IMG/VR virus record: IMGVR_UViG_3300036832_000699
Location: 1-34,762 of that record
DNA: 34,762 nt
Source of the DNA: a virus
Direction: 5' to 3' (one strand)
A program made the position numbers and the translations under genes. This document shows, one piece after another, positions 1,558 through 27,369 of the stretch; the stretch's first letter is position 1; each line of letters starts with the position of its first letter. Under the pieces are notes generated by a model. It saw nothing but the letters and a program-made list of their open reading frames with translations. It had not been told where the DNA came from and did no database searches.

Positions 1558-3345
1558 TTACCTTGCCCGCCTAGCCCAAGCATAGCCGGTCGCTGTTACG
1601 GTTCCACTGGAGAACGTTGCCCGAGCAGTCAGAAAGACGTTGGTGTTCGCACTGACGTTAAATCGGGCGGCCCCCGTGGGAAGCGTTTGGGCGGTAGCAC
1701 TAGTGAATGTTGCGTTTACGCTATGTAACGCACCTTGGCCCTGAGCGACTTGTGCTGATGTCGGTAACGTGGCGGATGTGGTGCCAAGACCAACCGCTGC
1801 TGCTGTTGCCGCTGCGCTTTGCGTTATTGTTGCAGATGCGCTAACGTCCCAATCGCCAGGCGTTAAAGCCAAAGTGCCAACATTAGCTGTAACATTGGTC
1901 GTTAGGCTTACAGCGGTTGTGACGCTAACCGATATAACTTCGCCTAGGTTTCCAGTGGCAGCGTTACTGGCGTTCGTAGCTCCGGCGATTGGCTGGCGGC
2001 CCGTGTCGCTCGGATGAACATGGTCGCTCCGGGACCAAAAAGTCGATGTTCCACTAGTACCGACTGGGCTATCCATAGCTGGGACGGCGTTCGACCCAGC
2101 GGGATATACCGGGACGAAAATAAGACCGTCGGTTCCTAGCGTTGCTGTGTTGCCACTGTTGGAACTGACTGCTGTTGGGCCGGGTGGCCCAGGGATACCC
2201 TGTGTTCCTTGCGGGCCTTGGGCACCGACTGTACCGTTTGTTCCGGTTACACCTTGAATACCTTGTGGACCTTGCGGCCCCTGTGGCCCCGCGGGTCCCG
2301 CGACGTTACCCAACACTACCCAGCCAGCAGGTGTTAGGCTCGCACCAACCCAAAGACAAACCTCTTGAGTCGGAGAATAGAGTAGCCCTTGACCATTGGC
2401 GAGTTGATTGCCTAGCGGTGGATTGCCAGGACTGTCCCAATTGGCTGGAATATAGCCGCTTGGCGGCAATTCGCTTATTTGCCGGTTGCTAAAGCTTCCA
2501 ATAATCTCCGCGGTTTGACCCGGTGCACCGTCGGTGCCTGAAGGCCCAGCAGTACCTTGCGGACCTATGGGACCGGCAGGCCCCTCGACGCCAGCAGGGC
2601 CTTGTATTCCCTCTGGACCTTGCTGGCCGTCGGCTCCGCTGGGGCCAATTGGACCCTGGGTTCCTTGCGGACCGGGCTGGCCTTGAGAACCGATAGGTCC
2701 GGTTGGTCCTTGCGGACCTGGAACTGTTGACGCTGCTCCAGTTGTGCCTTGAGGTCCGGCAGGTCCTACTGGACCCATAGGACCAACGTCACCTTGGGGG
2801 CCGGCAACCGTAGAGTCGGCACCTGTTGGCCCAGGCGGCCCGACGTTACCCTGGGGGCCAACGTCACCCTGGGGACCGTCGGCTCCAGGGTCGCCCTTTG
2901 TTCCCGGCGGACCGGGCGGACCCACGGGACCGATTGGGCCTTCGACGGTTGAGTCCGCACCAGTTGGGCCAGGATCGCCCTGAGGTCCGGGTGGGCCGAC
3001 TTCACCTTGGGCACCAACTGGACCTTCTGGACCCATTGGACCAATTGGCCCTGGGACACCCGCAGGTCCTTGCGGTCCGGCTGGGCCTGGTGGACCTTGA
3101 GTTCCGTCGCCAGTTCCACCACCAACAAATAACTGACCGTCGATATATATGCTACCTTCGACGTTTAGGTTTCCTGGCCCCATGTCGCCGCTATCGGGTT
3201 CGCCGATACAGACGCCTTGGTCAACATATAACCTTTGCACCATGAAGCCAGAGTTGGGGATCGACGTTTCGATGCTGACGCGCGCGCCCTCGGTGTGAAC
3301 CCTGGCGCGGCCTAGGTCAGTCCTGCTAACTAAATCGTCAGCCAT
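1558..3345 (-). CDS. Collagen-like tail fibre protein
   Basis: This 595-aa protein starts with an ~80-residue domain shared with the fibre at 5203-7227 ([25 protein letters not shown]), probably a virion-attachment domain. A long Gly-X-Y collagen-like stretch follows (about 81-285), interrupted three times by a GA(D/A)STV segment. Then come a globular insert (about 285-345, with GYIPANWD and AGWVVLGNV), a second short Gly-X-Y block (about 350-395) and a C-terminal domain with the SDHVHPSD motif common in phage fibres. Such repeats form trimeric shafts. The start has AGAGG about 8 bases upstream. It lies directly before the glycosyltransferase. Receptor-binding fibre is the best call; the exact position in the virion is unknown. 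Confidence 0.85.
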
Positions 3346-5202: not shown

Positions 5203-7227
5203 CTATGTCTCCCAGCCAATCAGAGTACAGTATATGTTAGCGAAAGTCGTATCGGCAGTTGACGGCCCGATGAGTCGCATAACATCCCCGGCGGCAAAAC
5301 TAACGGCCGCACCTCCTGTCGTGGTGAAGGTCGGAGTAATGGTGCCAGCGGCAAATGTGATCGTGCCAACGGTGCTGAACGAAGTCGGCGACGCGGCTAC
5401 CGCACGTTGCACCGTGATAACTGTCGAAGCCGTAGCATTAGCCGTGCCACCGGCACGCGGGTTGTGTCCGAGATAAGCGCCAAAATTACCGTTGATTGTC
5501 ACTGCTTTGGAGAACTGGTGTAACCCGATTAGTTGGTTAGTCGCCAACACACCACCCACGAACGAAAACCCTACCGAGTATCGAGGACGCTGTACTGTCC
5601 ACGCGCTGCTAATATAAACCAGGGTGTCGTAATCGGCAGTACCACCCGGTAGCCCGCCAACGTGGCTATCCACATATTGCTTAGTCGCGGCTTGCAAGTT
5701 CGTGGTTGGGTCGGCAGGAAGAACGACGGGCCGAAGGAAGGTGGCATTGGTGTCGTTCAATATTAACCAAGTGACGGTCGATGCAAGATTACCAAATCGG
5801 TGTTCAGTGTTTTGGTAGTAGTTCCTCGCGTCACCAGTACCTCCAAGGTAAAGTACTACGTCGGTGCCTTCACCGTGGTAAATCTGGTTATAGGTGCCGC
5901 CCGGATCAGCGAATTTAATGCCGCGCAGATTGTATTGGGTGGCTGCGTTAATCGTGGTGCCGTTCAACGCCCCCGTCAAAGTGCCGCCGGCCAACGGCAA
6001 CACCCCAGTCCATGCAGTGTTCAGTCTACCATAAGTCGTACCGTCACTCGGTGCGTCTGCTATACCTCCTCCACCCCCGACATGAGCATCAACGTATTGC
6101 TTCGTGGCGGCTTGCAGGTTCGTGGTCGGATCAGCAGGTAGGACTACTGGAACGTAGAATGTTGCAGCGGTCGAGTTTATACCTACAAAAGTGGGGCTCC
6201 CGCCGACGCCAGTAATCCAATGCTGGGCCTGCGCGAGTTCCAAAAAGGTTGAACTGAGAACTATAGATACGTTGGTGCCGTTACCGTCGTAAAGATTTGT
6301 GACACCGGCACTGCCAGTAGCGACCCGCTTTCCGCTTATGTTGTATTGGGATGCTGAGAGGTTGCCAACTGTCGAAACGTTTCCGCTTTCGCTAATCGTT
6401 ACTAGGTCCGTTACGTTGTTTCGCAACCTTGCGACAGATGACGAACCATACCACTGCCAAGTCGAGTTGTCGCTTATATCATTAAAGCGTAAACCTGCGG
6501 TCGACCCGGACGAGTAAATTGGCCCTGCAAACGTGCCGCCGCCAGCCATATTTAGGTTGCCGCCAACACTGACTGTAGCAACATCGCCATTAGTAACGTT
6601 GTTTAATCTTGCTGTGCCGCCGTTGGCGAGTAGGGTCCAGTTTGGCTGCGAACCGCCTGTTCGGTCGGCAAACACAAACCCAGCAGAGACTCCAACAACA
6701 TCGACTGTGGGAGCAGTCAGTGTTCCAGTCATGGTGCCGCCGGCCACTGGAACGTAGGGCTGTGCGACGTCAATAGTTGGCGGCGTGGTGGCAAGATTAA
6801 GCTGAAGTCCCGGGCCTGTTTGATATGTTCCAGAGGCTCCCGCTGGTCCCATAGGACCAGTCGCTCCCGTTGCGCCTGCTGGGCCAGTTGGACCTACAGG
6901 CCCGACTGCACCCGCGGGTCCGGTTGCGCCAGTTGGTCCCGGTGCTCCGTCTGTTCCTGGTGGACCTTGGGGACCAGGTGGACCTTGTATGCCCACGCCA
7001 GTCGGCACCAGTAGTTGCCCACCCAGATAAATGTTACCTTCAATGTTGATATGGCCCGGTCCCATATCGCCGCCAACTGGGGTACCGACACAGACACCTT
7101 GATCGACATGCAGTCGACGTAACATTTGCGCGATATGTGTTGGAACAGACGTAGCTACGTCAACTTTGGCACCAGTGGCGTTTACGCTTGATCGCCCTAG
7201 GTCGGTACGGTAGGCGGTATCGCTCAA
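5203..7227 (-). CDS. Tail fibre with collagen-like neck and KQYVD repeats
   Basis: This 674-aa protein shares its first ~80 residues with the fibre at 1558-3345 ([29 protein letters not shown]). A short Gly-X-Y block (about 80-135) follows, then a long beta-rich shaft. The segment [18 protein letters not shown] occurs twice, the hallmark of many phage tail-fibre repeats, and each copy follows an 'ATF-P-VVLP' strand. The C-terminus is beta-rich and ends LIGWET. The start codon is TTG with AAAGG about 9 bases upstream; no ATG fits that spacing. It lies 4 bases after the portal gene. The shared N-terminus suggests both fibres use the same attachment site. Confidence 0.85.
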
Positions 7228-9755: not shown

Positions 9756-10004
9756 CTAACGTTGTTTTTGTTTAAGTTCGCAATCGCGAACCATCTGAAA
9801 CACCTCGGCAGCAGTCTCGACCACGCCAAAACCAGCCTGCCTGACTCCCGTATAAATTACGCTATTCGTTCCGGCCGCGACATGTTCACGATGTTGATCG
9901 CTGATTGGTTTGACAACTCGAATAGTGTCTGATTGCACAAGTAACTCGGTGCCGTCCGGTGAATGAAACACCAAGACACATGCAGCAATCATCCAATGAT
10001 ACAT
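9756..10004 (-). CDS. Small hypothetical protein, possibly FlbD-like fold
   Basis: From the ATG at 10004 this is 82 aa. The pattern (VLVFHSPDGTELLVQSDTI; GTNSVIYTG; VVETAAEVFQMVRD) resembles small FlbD-like beta proteins common in alphaproteobacteria and their phages; this is a weak resemblance. The frame stays open back to a GTG at 10097, giving 113 aa, but that version runs through a likely terminator hairpin (10029-10051), so the shorter start is preferred although no clear Shine-Dalgarno precedes it. The stop is TAG and lies just before the portal leader. Confidence 0.55.
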   Translation of the reverse strand: MYHWMIAACVLVFHSPDGTELLVQSDTIRVVKPISDQHREHVAAGTNSVIYTGVRQAGFGVVETAAEVFQMVRDCELKQKQR

Positions 10005-10020: not shown

Positions 10021-10051
10021 CAAGAAAAGGCCCCCGCCGAAGTAGGGGCCT
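10021..10051 (-). terminator. Rho-independent terminator, minus strand
   Basis: A 7-bp stem (AGGCCCC / GGGGCCT) with a 10-base loop is followed, reading leftward, by TTTTCTTG. It lies 28 bases past the stop of the 138-aa gene and before the preferred start of the next gene, a sensible place to reduce read-through between the upstream small genes and the portal/fibre genes. Confidence 0.6.
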
Positions 10052-10078
10052 CAATTAAAACTTGGTTCGACGTCGTGT

Positions 10079-10495
10079 TTAACTTCGATCGCCCCACAAT
10101 TCGAGCCAGAGTGGGTGCAGTCTGTAATAATCGCCGACCCGCACATACGCTATCGGGTCGTTAGGTAGCGCGGCGCGGAGGGCGGCAGTCACTGCATAGG
10201 TCGCGTCAATGTTCTCGGGGTTGCCCGCGGTGGCCGACACAGCCGCTCTTATGGCCGCACTGACTAAAGGCGTAAATTTCGGGCGAGCCTCGTCGGACCA
10301 GATGATCCCATGAAAGGACGCTGTCGCTTCCGCCTCAGCAGCCTCGCGCGCCTCCAGCTCTGCGAGCAACGCTCGCAGACGTTTCAGCATCGGGGCAATA
10401 GTTATGAGCGCGTTATCGTCGGCGGCGAGCCACGCGATCGCACCGCGTAGTGCGTTCAGTTGCTCATCCGGTACGGGCGCGCTCATAACAGTCAC
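10079..10495 (-). CDS. Hypothetical protein with alanine-rich coiled coil
   Basis: This protein is 138 aa from a GTG at 10495, or 135 aa from the ATG at 10486; neither has a strong Shine-Dalgarno. The first half is helical and Ala/Glu/Leu-rich (MLKRLRALLAELEAREAAEA), a likely coiled coil. The second half (TYAVTAALRAALP, YVRVGDYYRLHPLWLELW) is mixed. There is no signal peptide or membrane segment. It begins 5 bases after the PEP-CTERM gene and may be co-translated with it. Function unknown. Confidence 0.6.
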   Translation of the reverse strand: MTVMSAPVPDEQLNALRGAIAWLAADDNALITIAPMLKRLRALLAELEAREAAEAEATASFHGIIWSDEARPKFTPLVSAAIRAAVSATAGNPENIDATYAVTAALRAALPNDPIAYVRVGDYYRLHPLWLELWGDRS

Positions 10496-10500
10496 TTAGC

Positions 10501-11283
10501 TTAACCCGAACGACGACGCCGCCATAGAGCGGTGAAGCCAAACATTAGGATTGAGGACCCCAACACCATTAAAGTCCCCGGCTCCGGGATTGGCGGCGGC
10601 GGGGGAGGTGGTGGAGGTGGCGGTGGACTGCCGCCGGTTGTGTTTACCAAGCCAGTGTTTGTCCACGACGTGTCGAAGATCGTGATGTTGTTGGTCCCCG
10701 CACCGTTCTCGGCAAACGGAAATATAATATCGCCCTTCGCGAACACGCCAGTAAAGTTGATCTCGTCCTTGCCTTGGAAGGCTTGGTTGGCCGTGAACGT
10801 GAACACAGTCAGCGAGTTGGGCACCGTAATGCTATTCGCACTATAGGCTGCGGTGATGTTGCTGCCGTTCAAGCTGTTGTCGCAGGCAACGCATCCGACA
10901 AATGTGTAGAGGTCGGATGAACTAGTCGTTGAAAACGTCCCGCTGACAGTACCAGTTGGTGTGACAGTCACTGGGGTTGCGGGCTGGCTGTCAAAAAGGT
11001 AACTGCCACTGGTGATCGTCGGTGCGGGTGCCCCGGTTGGCACCGCGATGTAGATGGTTAGCGGCTGGCTGATGTTCTGCCCGCCAACGTCTTGAATGCT
11101 GAACGCCGTGCTGTTATTTAACAACACGGGATCGCTTCCAGTGGCGACGCTGCTCGTGACGTGGAACGAGGTCGGGTCGATGTAAGTGACCCCGTTTATG
11201 ATTACGTCGGCTTTGGCAGTTCCAAGTCCAACGGCTAACAGGACTCCTGCTGCCGTCGCGGTCCTAACTAACATGTGCTTCAT
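10501..11283 (-). CDS. Secreted PEP-CTERM sorting-domain protein
   Basis: This 260-aa protein has a clear Sec signal peptide (MKHMLVRTATAAGVLLAVGL, cleavage near AKA-D at about 25). A beta-rich, Thr/Ser/Asn-rich mature domain with a CVAC cysteine pair follows, then a run of 12 prolines (220-231) and a canonical PEP-CTERM tail: P-E-P (233-235), a hydrophobic helix (about 238-254) and RRRR (255-258). In bacteria, exosortase (EpsH family) cuts at PEP and attaches such proteins to the envelope or exopolysaccharide. No exosortase is in the window, so a host enzyme would be needed. It sits inside the late operon between the proline-rich protein and the portal gene. AAGG lies 10 bases before the ATG. 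PEP-CTERM proteins are hardly expected in a phage, suggesting acquisition from a host. Confidence 0.85.
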   Translation of the reverse strand: MKHMLVRTATAAGVLLAVGLGTAKADVIINGVTYIDPTSFHVTSSVATGSDPVLLNNSTAFSIQDVGGQNISQPLTIYIAVPTGAPAPTITSGSYLFDSQPATPVTVTPTGTVSGTFSTTSSSDLYTFVGCVACDNSLNGSNITAAYSANSITVPNSLTVFTFTANQAFQGKDEINFTGVFAKGDIIFPFAENGAGTNNITIFDTSWTNTGLVNTTGGSPPPPPPPPPPPPIPEPGTLMVLGSSILMFGFTALWRRRRSG

Positions 11284-11305
11284 AACGACTTTACCTTAAA
11301 GGGTT

Positions 11306-11335
11306 GATGGTGCCAGGGGAAATCCTGGCACCATC
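11306..11335. repeat. Perfect 12-bp inverted repeat (hairpin)
   Basis: GATGGTGCCAGG and CCTGGCACCATC flank a 6-base loop, a perfect stem between the proline-rich gene and the PEP-CTERM gene. No T-run follows in either direction (three T on the plus side only), so it is either an atypical terminator or an mRNA-stabilising/processing hairpin in the PEP-CTERM leader. Confidence 0.75.
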
Positions 11336-11410
11336 TTTGCAATGCAAGAAGCGAGCCAACCACTAAGTGCTTGATTTTGCTCGCCTTTTCCCATCAGGAG
11401 CCCCCAAAGT

Positions 11411-11436
11411 GTAAAGTGGGCCGACACCCACTTTAC
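11411..11436. repeat. Perfect 10-bp inverted repeat (hairpin)
   Basis: GTAAAGTGGG and CCCACTTTAC flank the 6-base loop CCGACA. It lies 25 bases past the stop of the proline-rich gene and directly abuts a GGCATAC element at 11437. With the hairpin at 11306-11335 it makes a two-hairpin leader before the PEP-CTERM gene; an operator or RNA element is possible. Confidence 0.75.
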
Positions 11437-11461
11437 GGCATACACCCAAATCAACAGTCCG

Positions 11462-12010
11462 TTATGCTGGCGGTGTGGTTGCTGACGTTTCTGGCGGCGC
11501 AACAATGACCGGACCGACCCCCGGATAATTAACGACTATATAGGGCGGCGGCACGATCCCTTGTACTGGCCAACCAGGACTGCCAGCAGGTGGCGGCAGA
11601 GGTGTAGTCGGATCACCCGGGCTAGGCTGGGCGGTATCAGGCGGCAGCGGCGGAATGTAGATCGGCGGCGTAGCGTAGCCTGGCCACGGAGAGTCACCGC
11701 CCCACGTCCCAAGCGGCGGCTGAGGTTGTCCACCGCTACCTGGCGGTGTCGGCCACACGGTCGGCGGGATTGGGTGTTCTGGGTGTCCTGGCCACCACGG
11801 TGGATTTGGCTGACCGCCACCACCGGGCGGATTGGGCCAAACAACTGGTGGGATCGGATGGGAAACCCAAGGTGGTGGTCCGCCCGGCATTGGGCCGCCT
11901 CCGACCTGAAGCCCGGTCAGTGAGGCTTCGCCAAAGATGATGACGTTCTGCTGTGTCCGGTTGTATTTGTCGTAAAGTACGCCACTAATGGTAATTTCTA
12001 CTGCGGCCAT
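11462..12010 (-). CDS. Proline-rich repeat protein, virion-associated hypothetical
   Basis: This 182-aa protein has a short beta-type N-terminal domain (1-35, MAAVEITISGVLYDKYNRTQ) followed by about 130 residues of Pro/Gly/Trp-rich sequence with imperfect repeats (HPIPPVVWPNPPGGGGQPNP; HPIPPTVWPTPPGSGGQPQP). It has no membrane segment. GGAG lies about 9 bases before the ATG. It sits two genes after terL. An extended spacer or adhesive protein is likely, but no function can be assigned. Confidence 0.75.
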   Translation of the reverse strand: MAAVEITISGVLYDKYNRTQQNVIIFGEASLTGLQVGGGPMPGGPPPWVSHPIPPVVWPNPPGGGGQPNPPWWPGHPEHPIPPTVWPTPPGSGGQPQPPLGTWGGDSPWPGYATPPIYIPPLPPDTAQPSPGDPTTPLPPPAGSPGWPVQGIVPPPYIVVNYPGVGPVIVAPPETSATTPPA

Positions 12011-26380: not shown

Positions 26381-26858
26381 CATCATAACAATAGACCCAA
26401 CAACCCAAACCATCGCCAACCTCGCCGCCCCAACCGACTCCGACCAATTCTTACAGCTGACTCACGACTACATCGGCAGCCGCGACCTAGATCACGGCAC
26501 CATCGCCGTCAATTGGCCCCGCGCCGGTTACAGACTGTGCATAATCGTCTATGGACAAGGACTCCTCGGTGGTCCCCAAACTACAACCCAGTACTTCGCC
26601 ATCAATCGTCAACTCTACAACGGACGTGCTATACTATACGCTGCCGACCCCCACGGTGAAACGACTTCCATCTCGCAAACTCTTATCGACATCCTTAGTG
26701 AGCACGCCCACCTAACATGGATAAGTTCTCCCGAAGCCGTCGAAAACCTAATAACCCTCGGTGAAATCGACCGCCCCATAACCACTATCAACGACGCCAT
26801 AATTTGGCAATGGTCAAACCCAGAGAAAGAGACCCAAGAAGAAGGTGGCCTCCGATGA
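26373..26858 (+). CDS. DUF3846-like hypothetical protein (161 aa)
   Basis: It starts MPNIITIDPTTQTIANLAAP and has YRLCIIVYGQGLLGGPQTTT, YFAINRQLYNGRAILYAADP and HGET. This order (beta start, central glycine turn, 'N-G-x-A-x-x-Y-x-x-D-x-x-G') recalls the DUF3846 proteins of phages, a weak recollection. No catalytic motif. Overlaps both neighbours, the next in ATGA. Confidence 0.6.
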   Translation: MPNIITIDPTTQTIANLAAPTDSDQFLQLTHDYIGSRDLDHGTIAVNWPRAGYRLCIIVYGQGLLGGPQTTTQYFAINRQLYNGRAILYAADPHGETTSISQTLIDILSEHAHLTWISSPEAVENLITLGEIDRPITTINDAIIWQWSNPEKETQEEGGLR

Positions 26859-27055
26859 TGACCCACGAAGAAGCAATCGAACGAGCCAATAAAATCTGGC
26901 CCAACACAAAGTTCATCCTAACACCCGACCGTCATACCGACCGTTGGTGGGTCGATCTCGTACCCCTATCGGGGCGCGAAACCCACATGCTCGACGGCAA
27001 CGGTCACACCTGTTGCCACGAACAATGCGCGAGACTAGAGCGCAAAAGGACATGA
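26855..27055 (+). CDS. Small hypothetical protein with Cys/His cluster (66 aa)
   Basis: It starts MMTHEEAIERANKIWPNTKF. The C-terminal GHTCCHEQCARLERKRT has a C-C-H-x2-C cluster that might bind metal. AAGGTGG lies about 8 bases before the ATG, which overlaps the previous stop in ATGA. Confidence 0.6.
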   Translation: MMTHEEAIERANKIWPNTKFILTPDRHTDRWWVDLVPLSGRETHMLDGNGHTCCHEQCARLERKRT

Positions 27056-27057
27056 CA

Positions 27058-27369
27058 ATGGAAGACGACGACATCAACCGTCACCCTGGCATCAATAGCG
27101 ACCTAATAAGAATCTACTTCGAGAGAGGCGACATAAAGTCCCTAACCTCTCTATTCGACTTCCTCCGCCGAACAACCCTTCGAGCCGAAAGCCTAAGCAG
27201 AGCTTATCAGTCTCAAATGGTCGAACTCCATCGACGCCTCGAAGACATACGAATGGGCGCTAACGTAAAGAAGAAACAACCGATAGAACCAACGAGTCCC
27301 GAACCCCCGCAAACCAAACCGACGGTAGCGCGAAAGCCCAAAGGAAAAGTTATCGACATCGACCTCTAA
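27058..27369 (+). CDS. Hypothetical protein with C-terminal VIDIDL tag (103 aa)
   Basis: It starts MEDDDINRHPGINSDLIRIY at the ATG with AAAAGGA 7 bases upstream; the ATG at 27052 overlaps the previous stop but touches the ribosome site. A helical domain (about 1-65, SLTSLFDFLRRTTLRAESLS) is followed by a Pro/Lys/Thr linker and KGKVIDIDL at the end. This is the clearest example of globular part, flexible linker and terminal tag. Function unknown. Confidence 0.7.
   Translation: MEDDDINRHPGINSDLIRIYFERGDIKSLTSLFDFLRRTTLRAESLSRAYQSQMVELHRRLEDIRMGANVKKKQPIEPTSPEPPQTKPTVARKPKGKVIDIDL

Follow-up and report, generated by a model that had tools for sequence, protein, structure and literature searches.

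The predicted PEP-CTERM gene and its neighbours

The DNA analysed here (referred to as the window, meaning its whole length of 34.8 kb) is a linear virus record from IMG/VR. Its translation contains an intact 260-aa open reading frame (ORF) on the minus strand, which is followed by a 138-aa gene, a terminator-like hairpin and a small gene, all between a proline-rich repeat gene and the portal gene (Table 1). The original prediction described the protein as a PEP-CTERM substrate with every expected part, and all of these were confirmed (signal peptide, beta-rich mature part, 12 prolines, I-PEP, helix, and RRRRSG). Read from the sequence, the N-terminus (MKHMLVRTATAAGVLLAVGLGTAKA, followed by D) resembles a signal peptide of the Sec type, as it does in the relatives.

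Table 1 Features of the predicted PEP-CTERM unit and adjoining phage genes (positions in the window)
Feature	Position	Strand	Basis or remark
PEP-CTERM protein gene, 260 aa	10501..11283	(-)	ORF and translation; PF07589; homologues in 5 other phage contigs
Signal peptide, residues 1-25	11209..11283	(-)	Sequence (K/R n-region, hydrophobic core, AxA); predicted cleavage after AKA
Mature beta domain, residues 26-219	10627..11208	(-)	AlphaFold core, six-member alignment, dN/dS
Spacer of 12 consecutive prolines, residues 220-231	10591..10626	(-)	Sequence
PEP-CTERM segment (I-PEP, membrane helix, RRRRSG), residues 232-260	10504..10590	(-)	PF07589 stretch 231-257; modelled helix 235-258
Motif 1, predicted PrsR enhancer site TGTCGGCCCACTTTACA, 17 nt	11410..11426	(-)	Inside inverted repeat GTAAAGTGGG-TGTCGG-CCCACTTTAC
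Sigma-54 -24/-12 promoter-like site TGGCTCGCTTCTTGCA	11343..11358	(-)	51 nt after motif 1, 59 nt before ATG
Strong hairpin at expected start of sigma-54 transcript (5' leader)	11308..11337	(-)	RNA fold
138-aa accessory protein (MSAPVPDEQL.ALRGAIAWLAADD), second gene of unit	10079..10495	(-)	Homologues after PEP-CTERM gene in L002 and L003
Terminator-like hairpin GAGGCCCCTACTTCGGCGGGGGCCTTTTCTTG closing unit, after 138-aa gene	10027..10052	(-)	Sequence
Small accessory gene	9756..10004	(-)	Listed as 113 aa from 10097; start at 10004 likelier
Proline-rich repeat protein adjoining unit	11462..12010	(-)	Similar genes in L012, L014, L002, L171; kept in relatives without unit
Portal protein fused to inorganic-pyrophosphatase-like domain (PF18823), phage backbone	7232..9739	(-)	
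Terminase large subunit, phage backbone, full length from CTG codon	12323..13765	(-)	Alignment to L012

Profile HMMs bore out the PEP-CTERM call in part. PF07589 scored 21.2 bits in a frame search of the window, and it is by this score that the C-terminal PEP motif, hydrophobic helix and basic end are found above the curated cut-off of 20.7; none of 14 control genomes matched in the same search. On the 260-aa protein, however, PF07589 gave 19.8 bits using hmmscan, and TIGR02595 gave 15.1 bits against a cut-off of 16. Borderline alone, the assignment of the ORF as a predicted PEP-CTERM exosortase substrate is secure through its family, because six phage contigs with dissimilar neighbourhoods (window counted) keep the full layout and because the homologue on contig L004 (P0004) is above both cut-offs, with 24.0 bits for PF07589 and 24.3 bits for TIGR02595.

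A structure was modelled using AlphaFold with six sequences (mean pLDDT 66.9). Its core, approximately residues 51-191, had pLDDT values of 74-92 by ten-residue block, and the C-terminal helix was also modelled (Table 1). The top structural rows were CBM3, chitin-binding and adhesin beta-sandwiches; these are weak matches (Foldseek E ≥ 0.018, Z ≤ 6.5) that would fit, rather than show, a surface or carbohydrate-binding role.

It was originally proposed that the gene belongs to a phage late virion operon. The gene does lie within a virion gene block, but by its sequence context it forms an accessory unit that has a putative promoter region of its own and is not plainly a part of the virion operon. 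Four contigs (L012-L015) with portals 82-90% identical to that of the window contain terminase and portal and gave no PEP-CTERM match, and the proline-rich gene is present in three of them. This gene is separated from the portal by 23 bp in L014 and by an 82-aa membrane-protein-like ORF in L012, while in the window the same place is occupied by the PEP gene, the 138-aa gene and the small gene. The absence of the unit from these close relatives, together with a sigma-54 site and a terminator-like hairpin recognised by sequence, are the features by which it was classed as a moron. A sigma-70 scan returned a weak site inside the unit only, no more than expected by chance; read-through from upstream genes may also express the PEP gene.

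The later start of the small gene is preferred because its L002 homologue aligns from residue 32 and because the terminator precedes 10004. A pattern scan found no viral relatives of the 138-aa gene, although direct alignment does show the homologues in L002 and L003. The terminase large subunit starts with CTG (LEYVRPYLYPKQ...) and aligns over its full length with the L012 terminase; given this start, ORF lists using ATG, GTG and TTG contain only its last 384 aa. A similar pyrophosphatase-like domain (about 35% identity) is present in the portal of the unrelated L003 phage. Elsewhere in the window are two large collagen-repeat, tail-fibre-like proteins (1558-3345 and 5203-7227, minus strand) and a TPR and glycosyltransferase-9-like protein (166-1557).

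Control region upstream of the gene

The 178 nt before the PEP gene (11284-11461) are highly structured (RNA fold z -5.3; locally about -27 kcal/mol) and contain motif 1, the sigma-54-like site and the leader hairpin. Motif 1 is exact, and it is the sole match in the window when up to two mismatches are allowed. Haft et al. 2006 (PMC1569441) reported a 17-nt motif ending in TTTACA before proteobacterial PEP-CTERM genes, then a sigma-54 -24/-12 site, with a spacer of 32-92 nt between the two (mean 62.8) and the start codon 23-221 nt further on (mean 71); they saw this control region in Proteobacteria only and tied it to PrsR/PrsK. The window fits all of these published numbers. The gene resembles the PrsK/PrsR/RpoN-controlled genes of that source in its signal peptide, PEP-CTERM tail, motif and -24/-12 site, and in the distances involved (a spacer of 51 nt, with 59 nt left before the start codon); unlike them, it is found in a tailed phage, where it shares its unit with a second gene and a terminator-like hairpin and has no exosortase or prs genes alongside.

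The 17-nt word was reached by k-mer enrichment without use of the published description, but its exact form was tuned on data including the window, which makes a separate p-value for motif 1 circular in part. Independent of this tuning are the description in the literature, the sigma-54 consensus and the phasing of the spacers (below). Judged by sequence, the arrangement of PrsR motif and sigma-54 site appears to be of host type and points to expression under the host exopolysaccharide programme. A second, exact sigma-54-like site (TGGCACCATCTTTGCA) is formed on the opposite strand by the leader hairpin (11326-11341, plus strand), and may be due to chance or be a divergent promoter.

Homologues, related phage genes and possible hosts

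The expectation that other phages would carry homologues was upheld by five further phage contigs. Close homologues (67-88% identity) are encoded on the IMG/VR contigs L002 (37 kb), L003 (42 kb) and L004 (111 kb), and distant ones (47% and 39%) on L170/G480 (66.6 kb) and L171/G475 (114 kb, encoding a tail sheath). The order of signal peptide, beta domain, proline run, PEP, helix and basic end is kept in all six proteins; the proline run has 11-12 prolines in five of six relatives and is shorter in L112. In the alignment, C131-x-x-C134-D is invariant in all six members, as is a TNTG motif of the mature domain, and the dN/dS of the mature part (0.07-0.11) indicates purifying selection. The signal peptide changes rapidly between relatives and the tail likewise drifts, with chemistry preserved in both.

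A second PEP-CTERM gene adjoins the family gene in five of the six phages, the window being the one without a partner. Those of L002, L003 and L004 were above the cut-off, and the partner proteins fall into four different mature-domain families. Between the window and L003, the DNA is similar only across the PEP gene (beginning near codon 21) and the first part of the gene that follows, apart from a single 234-bp stretch in another place. Given this narrow overlap and the fact that the portals of the window, L002 and L003 fall in different PHROG families, the PEP gene is taken to move between phage backbones. The 234-bp piece (window 26836-27068, about 80% identical to L003 5671-5903, in backbones otherwise dissimilar) is perhaps another shared mobile piece.

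Searches of isolate phages (INPHARED), plasmids and GTDB genome contigs found no close relatives of the PEP protein. A tblastn search of phages with the short PEP tag returned nothing useful, probably owing to low-complexity masking. One candidate bacterial homologue (L030) scored 42 bits with the tail included, whereas its mature part alone scored 10 bits against up to 8 for shuffled sequences, and no mature-domain homologue was found in 385 alphaproteobacterial-class genomes, where matches were at the C-terminal end only.

PEP-CTERM genes of other kinds were sought across viral IMG/VR contigs using a degenerate DNA pattern for [VIL]PEPx[TSA]LxLLG, which returned at least 120 stretches. Among the matches listed, at least 119 are PEP-CTERM C-termini (in 119 of the 121 frames with a match, the end lies no more than 40 aa from the motif), and most such frames have a recognisable signal peptide. 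One PHROG family alone detected a terminase in 27 of 47 records (44 from the pattern scan and the three first relatives, among the matches listed). The 101 proteins with an assigned start, again among the matches listed, formed 34 mature-domain clusters, the largest having 25 and 15 members. Within L050-L169, the matches listed include a family of 25 proteins with FGQTSG-like mature N-termini and one of 15 with LQISADINGT-like N-termini, the latter including the L003 partner gene. The PepA model (NF033554) gave weak matches along much of the length of some other phage PEP-CTERM proteins (43.8 bits for P0005 and 35.9 bits for L058; cut-off 80).

The host-type control signals recurred in this set, for which counts are approximate, as a simple rule was used to place the start codons and near-duplicates were filtered by the last 60 nt only. 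Among the matches listed, sigma-54-like sites scoring at least 10/11 preceded 7 of 82 PEP genes and 2 of 732 other ORFs on the same contigs (p 2.5e-6), and motif 1 paired with a sigma-54 site 32-92 nt away preceded 10 of 81 PEP genes and 1 of 741 other ORFs (p 5e-10). The spacers of these ten listed pairs (41, 41, 42, 51, 51, 51, 62, 63, 63, and 73 nt) group at intervals of the DNA helix (R 0.94 at 10.5 bp, p about 1e-5; 5e-5 when the period is not fixed), a pattern that would be predicted for an activator that has to face the polymerase. In L121, motif 1 occurs twice in exact form (near 2439 and 3160) before ORFs outside the PEP-CTERM calls, which are possibly other genes under the same control. 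In L108, a PEP-CTERM gene of another phage (1150-1899, minus strand) lies 3 bp after the major head protein gene.

Use of the host exosortase, as originally suggested, seems a sensible reading: no exosortase was found in 21 phage records (the window and 20 others), and the enzyme is common in a proteobacterial group to which distant portal relatives led. These relatives (31-39% identity) occur in 10 genome contigs, of which 8 are alphaproteobacterial judging by their titles; this gives a class-level lead only. In the order of one bearer, exosortase was above the cut-off in 16 of 43 genomes and PrsR (TIGR02915) in 13, all among the 16; the four exosortases typed in that order were three XrtA and one XrtD. 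The portal-relative genomes themselves had an exosortase in 3 of 10 cases. The control motif, as described by Haft et al., likewise points to Proteobacteria as a probable host group.

Interpretation and rival readings

The sequence shows an accessory unit located in phage DNA, its sorting tag, purifying selection, the arrangement of regulatory sites and wide occurrence; on these grounds we consider it likely that the unit is a phage moron that plugs into the RpoN/PrsR PEP-CTERM regulon of its host, and that its product is secreted by Sec and processed by the host exosortase onto the matrix or surface. For transcription, export, processing and placement, we infer the following course. In an exopolysaccharide-making proteobacterial host, PrsR and RpoN would transcribe the PEP gene, the protein would be exported through Sec and the C-terminal helix would retain it in the inner membrane. 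The host exosortase, most likely of the XrtA type, would then cut at PEP, and the cut protein would be handed to the cell surface or matrix, which its beta domain would alter.

The benefit to the phage is the least certain part, and would most likely lie in controlling adsorption (keeping other phages out) or the aggregation and matrix state of infected cells. In the Aquincola study (PMC9850573), a PEP-CTERM gene with a -24/-12 promoter is RpoN-dependent, its product PepA binds exopolysaccharide to cells, and PepA overexpression converts soluble exopolysaccharide to a cell-bound matrix. Because PepA makes soluble exopolysaccharide cell-bound, a phage PEP-CTERM protein could change aggregation or mask receptors. 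The window protein is like PepA of Zoogloea and Aquincola (NF033554; PMC9850573) in being a predicted secreted PEP-CTERM protein, and its gene has a -24/-12 promoter-like site, as does the RpoN-dependent gene of Aquincola; unlike PepA, it has no reported match to the PepA model.

The position of the gene could also be read as that of a late virion-operon product, transcribed with the capsid genes and then exposed on the dying cell or borne by virions as a matrix-binding protein. Head genes surround it in the window and in L002, where the major head protein is encoded a short way downstream of it; in L108 the gene immediately after the major head protein is a different PEP-CTERM gene, and the PEP-CTERM genes of L171 are some kilobases from the tail sheath gene. 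We nevertheless consider this unlikely given the unit's own enhancer and sigma-54 site, the terminator-like hairpin after it, its absence from close relatives, and its location away from the head genes in L003 and L004. Somewhat less probable is that the phage protein or the extra PrsR sites act as a decoy, competing with host PEP-CTERM proteins for exosortase or PrsR and thereby weakening the matrix of the infected cell and easing lysis and spread. The intact sorting tag, the PrsR-type site and the partner proteins that vary while the tag stays would all agree with this, but strong purifying selection on the mature domain and the invariant CxxCD and TNTG would be unneeded in a mere decoy.

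Capture of a host PEP-CTERM gene together with its promoter, as a neutral passenger useless to the phage, might explain a control region that looks host-derived and the many different PEP-CTERM families in phages. It is nonetheless quite improbable, as the same protein recurs in six phages with low dN/dS and an accessory-unit structure, and no close cellular homologue was found in the genomes scanned. An assembly chimera or misclassified host contig was named in the original prediction as one way in which it could fail, and might be suspected of a linear fragment from IMG/VR when some pattern-scan contigs lack a terminase detectable by one PHROG family. Phage genes are, however, near the PEP gene in six contigs with homologues, the window gene is flanked by portal and terminase genes, and phage relatives have the same flanks with no insert, which leaves this explanation with hardly any weight.

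As a moron wired into the host regulon, the unit would have known counterparts in lambda bor and lom, P22 gtr and the Sie proteins, which we take to be phage morons for surface change. They share the form of an accessory unit with its own control signals, in or beside virion genes, and an envelope-bound product. The window unit would differ from them in taking the exosortase route and in its predicted host sigma-54/PrsR control, a combination of which we know of no description for phages. No earlier report of phage-encoded PEP-CTERM genes was found in the open-access passages, titles and abstracts covered. The nearest earlier notice concerns 13 viral TIGR03118 proteins of hot-spring viruses with a putative exosortase-interaction C-terminus, described as horizontal acquisitions (PMC11003980).

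On balance, and with less confidence than for the single unit, we favour the view that tailed phages of exosortase-bearing Proteobacteria commonly carry genes for secreted matrix proteins, wired into the host exopolysaccharide programme by PrsR enhancers and sigma-54 promoters that are complete and of host type, and that these form a broad, undescribed class remodelling the biofilm matrix or the surface of the infected cell. Among environmental Gram-negative bacteria, the PEP-CTERM/exosortase system is a major route of protein sorting, with links to flocs and biofilms; to our knowledge, most of its substrates have no known function. The same kind of gene in many other environmental phages suggests that phages use the matrix-building machinery of their hosts. 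Phage-carried substrates with regulatory DNA of the host kind offer a direct handle, in that PrsR-controlled surface or matrix composition would matter for phage success, and each phage-host pair becomes a test. The pairing of motif 1 with a sigma-54 site also provides a DNA signature for linking uncultured phages to PEP-CTERM hosts.
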